A DNA stretch of 48,814 nt from Haloterrigena salina JCM 13891 (GTDB taxonomy: Archaea > Halobacteriota > Halobacteria > Halobacteriales > Natrialbaceae). The notes below the pieces were generated by a model that had not been told where the DNA came from, made no database searches, and saw nothing but the letters and a program-made list of their open reading frames with translations. A program made the position numbers and the translations under genes. Where the stretch lies: contig NZ_AOIS01000029.1 of the NCBI RefSeq assembly GCF_000337495.1, forward strand, positions 47,720-96,533. The letters are read 5' to 3'. Shown in pieces: positions 4,853-47,946 of the stretch. Numbering within the stretch: position 1 is the first letter of the stretch; every line of letters begins with the position of its first letter.

Positions 4853-5278
4853 CTACTCGAAATACGGGCGACCGCCTTCGGCGAGCGCCGCCTCGCGAAC
4901 GCCCGCAGCGTCGGCGCTCGGAGCAGTCAGCAGGTGCCCCGCACAGTCGCAGTCCGACGCCCCGAAGCCGTCGACCTGCTCGCCCGGCAGCGACGCCGCG
5001 AGTTCGCACTCCCGGTCGTCGTCGGGGAACGCGACCGCGCTCTCGAGGCGCGTCTCGCGGTGGCCGAGCAAATAGTCGATGTGCCAGTGTCGCGTGTCGC
5101 GCTCGCCGCGGGCGAGTTCGCGGTGGCGGTCGATCCGGCCGAAGCCGCCGGGACCGAACGCGCTGCCGACGTAGGCGTAGGCCCCGGCGTCGAACTCGCG
5201 TTCGCCCAGCGCGCCGACCTCGAGGGTCGTCGCTCGCGGGACGTCGACGACGAGCACGTAGGTGCCGCTCTCGCTCAT
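4853..5278 (-). CDS. DUF123 / GIY-YIG-like family protein
   Basis: 141 residues. It begins GTYVLVVDVP and has AYAYVGSAFGPGG and HWHIDYLL, the pattern of the archaeal DUF123 family, which has a GIY-YIG-like fold (the YAYVGSA segment aligns with YxGxS). A nucleic-acid or nuclease role is inferred from the fold. A Cys-containing segment (GASDCDCAGHLL) is also typical of the family. A TATA-like TTTTTAG lies 24-30 bases upstream of the ATG. Confidence 0.85.
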   Translation of the reverse strand: MSESGTYVLVVDVPRATTLEVGALGEREFDAGAYAYVGSAFGPGGFGRIDRHRELARGERDTRHWHIDYLLGHRETRLESAVAFPDDDRECELAASLPGEQVDGFGASDCDCAGHLLTAPSADAAGVREAALAEGGRPYFE

Positions 5279-5377: not shown

Positions 5378-7573
5378 TTAGCGATCGCGATCCTGCTCGT
5401 CGTCCCGCGGAACGGGATCGTTCTCGTGGACGTGCCGTCGGCTGTCCATGTCCTCGTCCTCGCGCTGGCTCTGCTGGCGCTCGTCGCCACCGCCGGGGAG
5501 CCCCTGACTCGACTGGTCGCCGCGGTCGGTCGAGGAGGGCTGCTCGCGCTCGCGGTTCCAGTCGCGGTTGTGGCCCTGCTCGCCGCGGTCGTCGGCGCGC
5601 CGGGACGCCTGATCGTTCGGGCTCCGGTACTTCCGGCCGAACTCAGGTTCGTCGGTCCAGTCACCCTGCTCGGAGCGCCGGCTCTGGGGCTGGTGCTCGA
5701 GGCCGCCACCGGACCGATTCTCGGGCTGGTATTGCTCGGGGGAACCGGTATCGCTCCGACCGCCGGTCCGTTGGCCGCCGCCCTGCTGTGCGCGGCCGGC
5801 GCGGGGCTGGCCGTGCTGGCCCTGGTGTTGCTGGCCGCGTTGACCCTGGCTCTGCTGGTTGTACTGGCCCTGACCGCGATCGGACTGTTGCCCCCGACCT
5901 TGTTCGTCGCGCCGAGCGTCGTCCTGCCGGGCCTCGTTACGACGCTCGTGGCCGCGCTGGAAGCCCTGCTGGCTGCCGCCCTGTTGAGCGGCGTCGCCGC
6001 GGCCGCGCTGGCGCCGCTGATCCTGCTGCTGGCCCCGATAGCCGCGCTCGCGACGGTCCTGCTGGTTCTGTTGGTCCTGCATCTCCGTCGCGCCGCGGGG
6101 CATCCGTTCGTTGATTCCGCGTTCGCGCCCGCCCTGCTGATCGGGGCGACGCTGCTGGCCGCTCGTCTGTTGGGGTTGCTGGCCCCTCTGCGGCTGGGAC
6201 TGCTGGCTTCCCATCTGTTGAGGTTGCTGGCCTCCCTGCGGTTGGGACTGCTGGCGCTCGTGGCGGGCCTCGCCGCCGTACTGGAGGTTCGACTCCCGAA
6301 TCGCGTTGGTTTCGAACCCGCTCTCCTGACTGCCCTGCTGGGACTGGCCGCGCTGGCCCTGTTGTCGTCCCGTCTGCTGGCGGTCCTGCCGCCCGCGCTG
6401 TTGACCGCCCGTCTGCCGTCCGCGTTGGCCGCCCATCTGCTGGCGATCTCGCTGGCCGCCCATTCCTTGGTGACCGCGCTGCTCGTTCATTCCTTGTCGA
6501 CGCTGCTGACCGCCAGTCTGTTGCCGGCGCTGCTGACCGCCGGTCTGTTGCTGGCGCTGTTGACCGCGCTGCTCTCGTCGGCCTTTGGGGGGCTGGGACT
6601 GGGCGCCACTCTGTCGCCGGCGCGCTTCGGCGCCGTACTCGAGGTCCGCCTCGTCGCTCACGTCGGGTTCGAACTGGCTCCCGGGCTGGCGCTGGCGTTC
6701 GCGGCGGGACTGTTCGGAGCCGCCATGGTGCTCGTACTGGCCGGTTCGCTCGCGACCCTGCCCCTGCTGGCTGCGCTGTTCGTATCCCCGGGACCCCTGC
6801 TGCGGCGACTGTCGTCCTCGCTGTCCGCGCTGTGGCTCGCCCGTTCCCTGACGGCCCTGCTGGCTGCGTTGTCCCTGTTGGCCGCGCTGTCGACCGCCCA
6901 TCCGTTGGCTCTGCTGGCCGCCCATCTGTCCGCGCTGTGGCTCGCCCATTCGCTGGCGGCCCTGCTGGCCCTGCTGTTGGGGTTGACCCTGCTGACCCTG
7001 TCGGCCGCTCCGACGCTGTTGGTCGCCCATCTGCTGGGGCCGCTGCCCGCCCTGCGGCTGGGACTGCTGGCGCTCGTGGCGCGCCTCGCCGCCGTACTGG
7101 AGGTTCGACTCCCGAATCGCGTTGGTTTCGAACCCGCTCTCCTGACCGCCCTGCTGGCCTCGGTCGCCCCGATTCTGCTGGGGCTGTCCGCGTTGGCCCT
7201 GCTGACCGCCCATCTCGCGACCCTGCTGGCCGCGCTGCGTTCGCTCGCCGCGGCCGGCCTCCTCGCGGCGACCCCGCTGTCGGTCCCCGCCGGCCGACTG
7301 GCGGCCGTAGTCCGGTTCGCCGGCGGTCCCGCGGACGTCTTCCTCCGAACTGTGCCACTCCTCCGAGCGGCCTCGAGAAGCCTCCTCGGAACGGTCTCGA
7401 GACGGGCCGTTCGCGCCCGTGTCCTCACTGCCGCCACGGCTGTAGAGTCCGTGTACCCAGCCGCGGTCGTGGTGCTGTCGTCCCTCGGACTCGCGATACC
7501 GATCGTCTCGCTCGGCGTCGCTCGAGCGGTCGGTGCCTCGGTCTCGTCGGTCGCGGTCGTATCGGTCGTTCAT
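5378..7573 (-). CDS. Gln/Gly/Arg-rich low-complexity repeat protein of unknown function
   Basis: 731 residues, not recognised as any family. The N-terminus is charged (Arg, Asp, Ser) with one short ordered-looking stretch (HDRGWVHGLYSRGG). The rest is dominated by Gln, Gly and Arg (GQQGQRGQPQQ-like blocks), ending in an acidic tail. No signal peptide or membrane span is visible. Two segments near residues 139-175 and 411-446 are almost identical (ESGFETNAIRESNLQYGGEA), and a third near 298-328 is diverged (FEPDVSDEADLEYGAEAR). Related short motifs EPDYGRQ and EPEFGRKYR lie near the two ends. The high Arg content is unusual for a halophile. The overlapping plus-strand frame is Leu/Ala-only because CAG codons read as CTG in antisense, so I take the minus strand as coding. 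Confidence 0.7.
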   Translation of the reverse strand: MNDRYDRDRRDRGTDRSSDAERDDRYRESEGRQHHDRGWVHGLYSRGGSEDTGANGPSRDRSEEASRGRSEEWHSSEEDVRGTAGEPDYGRQSAGGDRQRGRREEAGRGERTQRGQQGREMGGQQGQRGQPQQNRGDRGQQGGQESGFETNAIRESNLQYGGEARHERQQSQPQGGQRPQQMGDQQRRSGRQGQQGQPQQQGQQGRQRMGEPQRGQMGGQQSQRMGGRQRGQQGQRSQQGRQGTGEPQRGQRGRQSPQQGSRGYEQRSQQGQGRERTGQYEHHGGSEQSRRERQRQPGSQFEPDVSDEADLEYGAEARRRQSGAQSQPPKGRREQRGQQRQQQTGGQQRRQQTGGQQRRQGMNEQRGHQGMGGQRDRQQMGGQRGRQTGGQQRGRQDRQQTGRQQGQRGQSQQGSQESGFETNAIRESNLQYGGEARHERQQSQPQGGQQPQQMGSQQSQPQRGQQPQQTSGQQRRPDQQGGRERGINERMPRGATEMQDQQNQQDRRERGYRGQQQDQRRQRGRGDAAQQGGSQQGFQRGHERRNEARQDDARRDEQGRGQQSDRGQGQYNQQSQGQRGQQHQGQHGQPRAGRAQQGGGQRTGGRSDTGSPEQYQPENRSGGGLEHQPQSRRSEQGDWTDEPEFGRKYRSPNDQASRRADDRGEQGHNRDWNREREQPSSTDRGDQSSQGLPGGGDERQQSQREDEDMDSRRHVHENDPVPRDDEQDRDR
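6235..6342 (-). repeat. Internal gene duplication, copy 1 (108 bases)
   Basis: Near-identical to 7049-7156, with about three differences. It encodes the FETNAIRESNLQYGGEAR module of the Gln/Gly/Arg-rich protein. The two copies are about 814 bases apart in the same orientation. Confidence 0.85.
7049..7156 (-). repeat. Internal gene duplication, copy 2 (108 bases)
   Basis: Partner of 6235-6342 inside the same gene. The near-identity at DNA level suggests recent duplication or gene conversion. Confidence 0.85.
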
Positions 7574-7699: not shown

Positions 7700-7712
7700 G
7701 GCGGATAAAAGG
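7700..7712 (-). promoter_or_regulatory. Possible promoter for the repeat protein
   Basis: Minus-strand CCTTTTATCC lies about 130 bases upstream of the ATG at 7573, in the gap between two minus-strand genes. It would leave a leader of roughly 100 bases. It could instead be the T-run terminator of the upstream ATPase gene. Confidence 0.35.
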
Positions 7713-7746
7713 AAAGCGCGCGCTAGCGTGCACGCGCTCGAACGTG

Positions 7747-8754
7747 TCAGCGCCGCTCCCGAACGCCCTGCATTTCCCGCGACGGCGGGCCGCCGGGCGT
7801 CGCCTGTCCGGCGGTCTCCACGACGGACGCGAGGAGGCCCCGAACCGGTTCGTACTCGTAGGTGATCCACTGGGGGAGAAAGCGGGCGCCGGTGAGCTTC
7901 CGGACGCCCAGCTGGCGGAGTCGCGTGTCGGGCTCGAGGTGATCGGCCAGCCGCAGGTCGACGACGCCGTCGAAGACCGATTCGTCCATCGTGACACCTT
8001 CGTCGCCGGCCGTCCAGCCGCCGAAGATCGGCACGTACCGCGCCTTGCAGACCGTCGCCCGCGTCTCGGTGACGAACTCGTGGACGTGGTCCGTCTCGAG
8101 GCCGCGAGCGAGTTCACTCAGCGAATCGATCGCGACCAGCCCGGTCTCGGTCATCTCGAGGTCGTCGAGCGCCGCGTTCAGCTCCCGCAGGATCGGCTCG
8201 ACGTCGGTCGGCTCCTCGATCGGGACGATCGAGTCGGCGGCGGCCTCGCCGACGAACTCGATCCATTCGCCGCGGTGGTCGCGGAACGCGTCGCGATCCG
8301 CGAGCCGGTGGGTGAAGCAGTCGACGAGCCGGAGGCGGTCGTCCTCGAGGGCCGGCAGGACGTTCCAGCCGTTCTCGAAGAAGCGCTCGAGGACCGCCGC
8401 CGGCGGCGTGGTCGCGGTCAGGATGACGGCCGGCTCGCCGCGCTCGATGGCGCGCCAGACGAGTTCGGTCAGCAGTTCGCTCCGGCGGGTCCCCGCCTCT
8501 CCCGACAGACAGACGAACGAGTCGGCGGGGACGCCGTTCGGTACCAACGAGTCGAGGGGCTCGACGCCCGTAACGATGCGCTTGTACGCGCTCGGATCGG
8601 GCACCTCGTCTCCGTCCTTGCCGGCTTCGAGACAGGTCGTCGAACAGAACTGCCCGTCGTCGGTCTCGTCGGGTTCGCCGGGGATCGGATAGTGACAGTG
8701 GTCGCACTCGAGAGGATACTCGGGAGAGCGCTCCGGCCGCTGTTGTGACGTCAT
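7747..8754 (-). CDS. RecA-superfamily (RAD55/KaiC-like) ATPase homologue with N-terminal zinc motif and degenerate P-loop
   Basis: 335 residues. The N-terminus has a treble-clef-like cysteine set (Cys17, Cys20, Cys37, Cys41). Then comes a RAD55/KaiC-like core: VTGVEPLDSLVPNGVPADSF before the P-loop, and a Walker B-like strand GLVAIDSLSEL (Asp210). The Walker A position reads GEAGTRRS (85-92): the usual Gly-Lys is Arg-Arg, so nucleotide binding or hydrolysis is probably altered or lost. Haloarchaea carry many such HTR-like or KaiC-like paralogues of uncertain signalling or regulatory role. The gene is divergent from the SDR gene at 8930. Confidence 0.8.
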   Translation of the reverse strand: MTSQQRPERSPEYPLECDHCHYPIPGEPDETDDGQFCSTTCLEAGKDGDEVPDPSAYKRIVTGVEPLDSLVPNGVPADSFVCLSGEAGTRRSELLTELVWRAIERGEPAVILTATTPPAAVLERFFENGWNVLPALEDDRLRLVDCFTHRLADRDAFRDHRGEWIEFVGEAAADSIVPIEEPTDVEPILRELNAALDDLEMTETGLVAIDSLSELARGLETDHVHEFVTETRATVCKARYVPIFGGWTAGDEGVTMDESVFDGVVDLRLADHLEPDTRLRQLGVRKLTGARFLPQWITYEYEPVRGLLASVVETAGQATPGGPPSREMQGVRERR

Positions 8755-30877: not shown

Positions 30878-30887
30878 GACGCCGTCG

Positions 30888-30979
30888 ACCGCCGTCAGCG
30901 GCGCCTGGCGGTAGCCGCGAGCGATCCGACCGCCGTCAGCGGCGCCTGGCGGTAGCCGCGAGCGATCCGACCGCCGTCA
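30888..30979. repeat. 41-base tandem duplication abutting the argS stop
   Basis: Two perfect 41-base units (30888-30928, 30929-30969) starting ACCGCCGTCAGCGGCGCCTG, then ten bases of a third that run into the argS stop codon (complement of TCA at 30977-30979). Each unit contains GCGGC and GCCGC arms able to form a short hairpin. Confidence 0.9.
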
Positions 30980-44490: not shown

Positions 44491-44504
44491 TCAGCACCGT
44501 CCCT

Positions 44505-44630
44505 CGAGTGGCGACTGCGCTCTTTCGAGTGGCGACTGCGCTCTTTCGAGTGGCGACTGCGCTCTTTCGAGTGGCGACTGCGCTCTTTCGAGTGGCGTCT
44601 GCGTCCCTTCAAGTGGCGTCTGTGCCGTCG
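44505..44630. repeat. 21-base tandem repeat, six units
   Basis: Four perfect units starting CGAGTGGCGACTGCGCTC (44505, 44526, 44547, 44568), then two diverged units (44589, 44610). The period is 21 bases with no spacers. It lies between the convergent rpl40e and MBL genes. Every frame is open across it because 21 is divisible by 3, but no start or ribosomal signal marks it as coding. Confidence 0.92.
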
Positions 44631-47133: not shown

Positions 47134-47946
47134 TTATGTTTCTAATTCGATCTCGGGAAGATATTGCTTCGCCCATTTTTTATGCTCTTTACGTCTATCA
47201 TCCGGATATCTAATCCGTCCCGAGTTATCATCGCACCAGTCAAAATACTCTATAAGCAAAATTCTCATCAAACCAGCTATTTCTTCATAATCGTTCTCTC
47301 CAAAACGGTGATGATACCAATCCAACCAAACTCTATTAAAGGGGTCATCACCTTTTGAGGAGAATCCTCTTGCAGACTCATCGATATAAACACCATAAGG
47401 GGGTGCATTAGATTCAGAATCAAATGCTTGAGATATCGGGTCTCCAAGCACAATATCACTTTTATCAACCGTTGAATTAGAATGTGAAATTGTATTATCT
47501 AATGTAGAATCGTCTATATCACTACCATGGATTATTGGTCCGTATGCGATTGAACCACGGATTATAGGAAGATAAAATATTTTATCAGTTCCAAAGATCC
47601 GATCAATTGCTGTTCGAGCCATTGTGGCAAATGTTTCTTCTAATGCTCGAACTATAGTTTCTTTATCTTCCGCTACTAAATAGAAACCATCCATAGCTGT
47701 ATATACATAGAGGTCGTCTTGGATCTCTAATCGATATGTAGCACTAGCAACAGCAGTATGTAATTTGTAGATATGATTTGCAGCATGGGTAATTGAACGT
47801 AGTAGCCATGACCGGGTACCCATTAGGTCAACCCATGCGACATAGGAATTGTCTGGATCTTCCAGATCATCTGCATCAAAATATATTTTATCCCCATTAT
47901 CAAATAAGTCGTGGTTTGGATTATAGACATCTGATTTATCAAGCAT
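47134..47946 (-). CDS. AT-rich orphan, class III nucleotide cyclase-like fold
   Basis: 270 residues, coded in strikingly AT-rich DNA against a GC-rich genome, so probably acquired. No family was recognised by name. The order of motifs matches a class III (GGDEF/adenylate cyclase palm) fold: strand YVAWVDLMG with Asp40, then YVYTAMDGFYLV with Asp86 as the second metal position, RGSIAYGPIIHG (130-141), and VLGDPISQAF (dimer-edge GxxVNxAA-like) followed by APPYGVYIDESARG. Similar cyclases occur in antiphage pyrimidine-cyclase (Pycsar) systems, but no effector gene is beside it. A TATA box lies 25-31 bases upstream, so a leaderless mRNA is likely. Activity is inference. Confidence 0.7.
   Translation of the reverse strand: MLDKSDVYNPNHDLFDNGDKIYFDADDLEDPDNSYVAWVDLMGTRSWLLRSITHAANHIYKLHTAVASATYRLEIQDDLYVYTAMDGFYLVAEDKETIVRALEETFATMARTAIDRIFGTDKIFYLPIIRGSIAYGPIIHGSDIDDSTLDNTISHSNSTVDKSDIVLGDPISQAFDSESNAPPYGVYIDESARGFSSKGDDPFNRVWLDWYHHRFGENDYEEIAGLMRILLIEYFDWCDDNSGRIRYPDDRRKEHKKWAKQYLPEIELET

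Follow-up and report, generated by a model that had tools for sequence, protein, structure and literature searches.

A lineage-specific, predicted disordered Gln/Gly/Arg-rich protein family with a predicted promoter of its own in Natrialbaceae

The DNA analysed here, a stretch of 48,814 nucleotides from Haloterrigena salina JCM 13891 (hereafter the window), carries a minus-strand open reading frame at 5378-7573 that had been read, from the letters alone, as coding for a 731-residue low-complexity repeat protein, and the frame was recovered exactly at this position and length. The source genome contains one copy of the gene. Glutamine (22%), glycine (18%) and arginine (17%) account for 57% of the protein, which has two lysines and no cysteine. 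Digestion with trypsin would yield very short peptides. The gene and its closest neighbours are the following:

5378..7573, minus strand: coding sequence of the 731-aa Gln/Gly/Arg-rich, predicted disordered protein (MNDRYD...PVPRDDEQDRDR)
7705..7732, minus strand: predicted promoter block TGCACGCTAGCGCGCGCTTTCCTTTTAT, made of an upstream element with a 10-bp-spaced CAMGC..CRCGC repeat and a TATA box (7705-7710)
7747..8754, minus strand: KaiC-like ATPase, neighbour
4853..5278, minus strand: DUF123 protein (PF01986), downstream neighbour, conserved synteny

The gene occupies one syntenic locus wherever inspected, and the gene order across genera is glutamate synthase, peroxidase-related, DUF123, the 731-aa gene, (KaiC-like) and epimerase. 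The KaiC-like ATPase shows a weak treble-clef match at its N-terminus, below Pfam's cut-off. Elsewhere in the window, a 270-aa orphan-looking ORF (47134-47946, minus) lies in a low-GC island (41% versus about 67%) and was perhaps recently acquired.

The minus-strand ORF is a real protein-coding gene. Over six genomes of its own genus, dN/dS is 0.17-0.43, indicating purifying selection, and the changes between G000 and G001 are distributed over codon positions 1, 2 and 3 as 17, 34 and 90, third positions dominating. Concerning the plus strand, an ORF of 760 aa lies antisense to the gene, and the sequence-only reading had raised the possibility of a transcript from that strand only. This frame remains open in 500 of 500 synonymous-codon shuffles, so that its length is a by-product of amino-acid composition, and none of the five other orthologues of the genus keeps it uninterrupted; we therefore rule it out as a gene, and the codon-position pattern and the shuffles together identify minus as the coding strand. 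It is highly improbable that the locus is non-functional, either as a repeat expansion without function or as the shadow of the plus-strand ORF: the repeats, the length variation, the gene losses described below and the sheer length of the antisense frame would fit such a reading, but it is contradicted by the selection and third-position bias, by the behaviour of the antisense frame in shuffles and relatives, and by the retention of the terminal block and the promoter over many genera.

The repetitive character of the protein also holds up: one stretch of 34 aa recurs exactly, whereas 200 shuffles never gave an exact repeat longer than 9. Both copies of SNLQYGGEAR fall within a direct repeat of 165 bp (6200-6364 and 7016-7180; 85% identity), and the pattern YG[GA]EAR occurs three times against none in 2000 shuffles. 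All five motifs that had been quoted as related are found, though they are not all of one kind: the two YGGEAR copies and the YGAEAR copy form a true, conserved module family, whereas EPDYG and EPEFG stand outside it, because relatives vary there (EPSMG/EPDWG and EPEFDREY, respectively) while the three YGG/YGA modules stay conserved. Two tandem repeats are present elsewhere in the window, one of 21 bp (44504-44622; 5.7 copies, 94% matches) and a perfect one of 41 bp (30886-30979; 2.3 copies) with stops in some frames.

Ten blocks, delimited by conservation, cover 309 of the 731 residues:

7490..7573, minus strand: N-terminal block, aa 1-28 (MNDRYDRDRRDRGTDRSSD...)
7427..7468, minus strand: block aa 36-49, DRGWVHGLYSRGGS, Trp/Tyr-containing, dN 0 versus G002
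7283..7363, minus strand: block aa 71-97 with EPDYG, at genus level only; not a YGG module
7064..7138, minus strand: YGG module 1, aa 146-170, SGFETNAIRESNLQYGGEARHERQQ
6614..6715, minus strand: YGA module, aa 287-320, ...GSQFEPDVSDEADLEYGAEARRR
6248..6322, minus strand: YGG module 2, aa 418-442, a copy of module 1
6002..6127, minus strand: block aa 483-524, RERGINERMPRGATEMQDQQNQQDRRERGYRG...
5927..5983, minus strand: block aa 531-549, QGGSQQGFQRGHERRNEAR; compare GRHQRSQGF in other genera
5477..5716, minus strand: block aa 620-699, RSGGGLEHQPQSRRSEQGDWTDEPEFGRKYRSP...
5414..5458, minus strand: C-terminal block, aa 706-720, DEDMDSRRHVHENDP, the family's most conserved peptide

In the genus alignment, gapped columns make up 8% of the blocks and 50% of the linkers, which, with homologues in 16 genera, bears out the expectation that the YG modules would be conserved while the linkers vary. 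In the same alignment, dN is some two- to threefold lower in the blocks than in the linkers; dS is also lower in the blocks, so that part of the contrast reflects lower overall divergence or poor linker alignment, and the contrast in dN/dS is weak. The linkers are devoid of Ile, Leu, Phe, Trp and Cys, and 18 of the 22 aromatic residues lie inside blocks (Fisher p 2e-4), although the choice of blocks by conservation makes this test partly circular.

A profile built on the C-terminal block detects the family in 56 of 125 Natrialbaceae genomes, representing 16 of 29 genera. This profile replaced a full-length one, which found nothing beyond the family and also missed many of its true members. A profile scan of genome contigs gave 12 named loci, while a scan with the N-terminal quarter gave no matches; named carriers include Natronorubrum halalkaliphilum, Natronolimnohabitans, Natrinema species, Halopiger djelfimassiliensis, Natrialba aegyptia and Natrialba taiwanensis. 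Outside Natrialbaceae, matches among 392 sampled genomes of the order are few and weak. The best of them (E 1e-4, G244) is Gln-rich but has neither terminal block, and we dismissed it as a composition match. That protein (L169, 6169-7539, minus) is an unrelated Gln-rich low-complexity protein of another haloarchaeal family, and may be an analogue. No match to the protein family was obtained in Pfam, NCBIfam or PHROGs, nor any Pfam family at E 0.1 in the 13 members tested; a PDB profile search returned nothing, and no paper on this family emerged from the open literature searched. These proteins are an undescribed, lineage-specific family of a known kind, the low-complexity disordered protein; what is new, judged from that literature, is the family itself, its setting in a halophile and the way it is regulated.

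The intact members examined range from 256 to 759 aa, and natural length variants carry zero to three YGG modules. The start block is present in all 43 intact members, the YGGEAR pattern in 40, GGGLEY in 38 and RRHVHE in 40. The YGG modules are thus not obligatory, as three of the 43 members do without the pattern; nearly every member, by contrast, has the N- and C-terminal blocks. One allele (G004; L017, 6318-8219) lacks the C-terminal RRHVHE block and ends in DWNRDR.

The gene has also been lost. In some Natrinema genomes and in one of the genus Natronorubrum (G138) it is absent between the KaiC-like and DUF123 genes; three genomes (G097-G099; L117, L120, L121) keep a short apparent remnant of the C-terminus at the gene-less locus; and in a further one (G113, L131) the promoter and start codon are retained and the gene body is deleted. 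Frameshifts in related strains, about which the sequence-only reading had been wary, do occur: homologues with conserved modules exist and most relatives keep the frame, but in several Natrinema genomes the gene is broken or deleted, the copies of G093-G095 being frameshifted or truncated (in G094 a gap in the draft may be the cause). The copy of Natrinema gari JCM 14663 looks interrupted in its draft assembly; another strain of that species, J7-2, is open to gene editing (PMC10433800). Distribution and natural losses, taken together, indicate that the gene is old in Natrialbaceae yet dispensable in places.

Upstream of the start codon lies a predicted promoter pattern of 28 bp, TGCANGCNANCNCRCGCY-N4-TTTWAT. 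Its two CAMGC/CRCGC half-sites, one helical turn (10 bp) apart and just upstream of the TATA box, occupy what would be an activator position. Where the block is clear, the TATA box is 64-166 bp from the ATG, which with a predicted start site would make the 5' leader about 40-140 nt long. Reading the leader alignment by eye for conserved RNA structure revealed short conserved strings with no obvious structure, and an Rfam search of the window gave no matches. Within the genus, the block occurs once per genome, at the disordered-protein gene only. Among the 125 genomes, 52 have matches with at most two mismatches, and coordinate comparison places every one of the 38 matches that have no more than one mismatch at this locus: in 37 cases the gene, whole or broken, is there, and the remaining case is the G113 deletion. 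The other gene-less loci that were scanned no longer have the block. In G021 and G091 the TATA box is present and the upstream element absent. We found no wider regulon, since two-mismatch matches elsewhere in the 125 genomes are no commoner than those of a reversed-pattern control. That such a promoter stands at one gene per genome, and is kept across many genera, suggests either autoregulation or a regulator that has one target only.

As the KaiC-like gene adjoins the disordered-protein gene on the same strand, the protein might be a dedicated partner, client or scaffold, of this ATPase. The two genes occur together in 39 genomes, whereas 17 have just the disordered protein, 21 just the KaiC-like gene and 48 neither (odds ratio 5.2, a statistic that ignores shared ancestry). 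However, the ATPase accompanies the gene in just those 39 of 56 carriers: Natrialba (g27), g14, g3 and others, where no KaiC-like gene was found, retain the disordered-protein gene and mostly its promoter too, and the gene has this promoter to itself. An obligate partnership is thereby ruled out, and we regard a dedicated one as improbable.

Concerning structure, an AlphaFold2 prediction from an alignment of 12 sequences only gave a mean pLDDT of 41, with no residue at or above 70 and no secondary structure; PMC6384707 cautions that predictions of disorder go wrong in halophiles. Together with the conservation of the modules and the variability of the linkers, this prediction agrees with the earlier proposal of a disordered, multivalent protein. 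The protein is most likely cytoplasmic, as it has no hydrophobic stretch for secretion. Its description as Arg-rich and non-acidic stands relative to its surroundings, with a pI of 10.8 and a net charge of +21 (R+K 17.5%) beside neighbours of pI 4.3-4.7, but not in absolute terms, as D+E reach 14.6%.

Such a composition could point to a hydrophilin-like protectant, a bulk hydrophilic disordered protein for drying or osmotic change that shields proteins and membranes without specific partners. All 43 members fall within the compositional definition, having Gly at 8.0-21.3% (above 6%) and GRAVY from -2.20 to -2.67 (below -1), and like hydrophilins and LEA proteins they have no Cys; a single dedicated promoter would suit induction by stress. 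However, composition criteria are by themselves not sufficient according to the authors who give them (PMC4190154), Arg takes the place of Lys, which is almost nil (38 in 21,794 residues, 0.17%), and no LEA Pfam model matched at E 0.1 among 13 members. Moreover, the short blocks are conserved as sequence, beyond composition alone. This explanation fits the composition as well as the scaffold discussed below but leaves the conserved peptides unexplained, and we consider it a real contender, though an unlikely one.

An RG-type RNA or DNA binder, in which Arg-Gly linkers would coat nucleic acid and YGG blocks stack on bases, is a further contender, though a rather unlikely one. RG is enriched 1.45-fold (1062 observed, 735 expected) and GR is not (0.90), QRG and RGQ are about 2.4- to 2.7-fold enriched, and the net positive charge and high pI among acidic neighbours point the same way. 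Against this, RGG is just 1.3-fold enriched (156 versus 122), the net charge is small (+21 in 731 residues; -10 to +32 over 36 members), molar KCl screens Arg-phosphate contacts, and no known nucleic-acid-binding domain was matched in Pfam, NCBIfam or PHROGs.

The best explanation, which we favour tentatively and at less than even confidence, is a cytoplasmic sticker-and-spacer scaffold whose aromatic/Arg blocks would condense at molar salt. Composition, predicted disorder and block layout fit it, the combination of disorder and multivalent stickers being found by prediction in the low pLDDT and the conserved aromatic-bearing blocks. In such a scaffold, the blocks, with their aromatics beside Arg and Glu, would bind weakly and reversibly to one another and to a partner, and the Arg-rich, nearly Lys-free linkers would keep the chain soluble yet prone to condensation. 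Charge is screened in the molar-KCl cytoplasm, and a reentrant condensed phase at high salt would arise from Arg/aromatic contacts. A specific client or partner would be recruited by the conserved ends (MNDRYD...GWLHGLxSRG and DEDMSNRRHVHE), and a dedicated regulator at the private upstream element would set the synthesis of the protein.

FET/FUS proteins carry an RRM and a RanBP2-type zinc finger beside their low-complexity regions. The present family resembles the prion-like and RG segments of FUS in being Gln/Gly/Arg-rich, with sparse YG tyrosines (YG is 2-fold over shuffles) and a sticker-and-spacer layout; unlike FUS, it is found in a halophile context and has no RRM, zinc finger or other Pfam domain (13 members), and we found no homology between the two. 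Reentrant phase separation at high salt has been described for Arg-rich but not Lys-rich peptides (PMC9705477), and condensation of FUS at high salt proceeds via hydrophobic and non-ionic contacts (PMC7889641). Scarce Lys and abundant Arg fit this regime because it is Arg-rich, not Lys-rich, peptides that show reentrance; protamine and PR25 are likewise Arg-rich and nearly Lys-free, but are strongly cationic whereas the present family is nearly charge-balanced (PMC9705477, PMC7889641). Besides the partly circular aromatic enrichment, the weak dN/dS contrast and the caveats on the disorder prediction, further points count against the scaffold: GC-rich haloarchaea are in general Lys-poor and Arg-favouring (Lys is 0% in the DUF123 protein and 2.6% in glutamate synthase), and the gene is dispensable in the several Natrinema genomes and the Natronorubrum genome that lack it at the locus. 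That the protein is, further, the dedicated scaffold of a membraneless body working only in a salt-in cytoplasm through Arg/aromatic high-salt reentrant contacts, with a regulator for this gene alone, seems to us unlikely.

Reentrant condensation at high salt is known from test-tube work; for a salt-in archaeon, molar salt is the permanent condition, and this family is a good candidate for self-assembly in near-saturated salt. Its members are natural proteins of simple layout, Cys-free and almost Lys-free, that come with length variants, and with them one can test directly whether haloarchaea form condensates and whether these matter. The private promoter, for its part, offers a handle on the signal that the disordered-protein gene answers.
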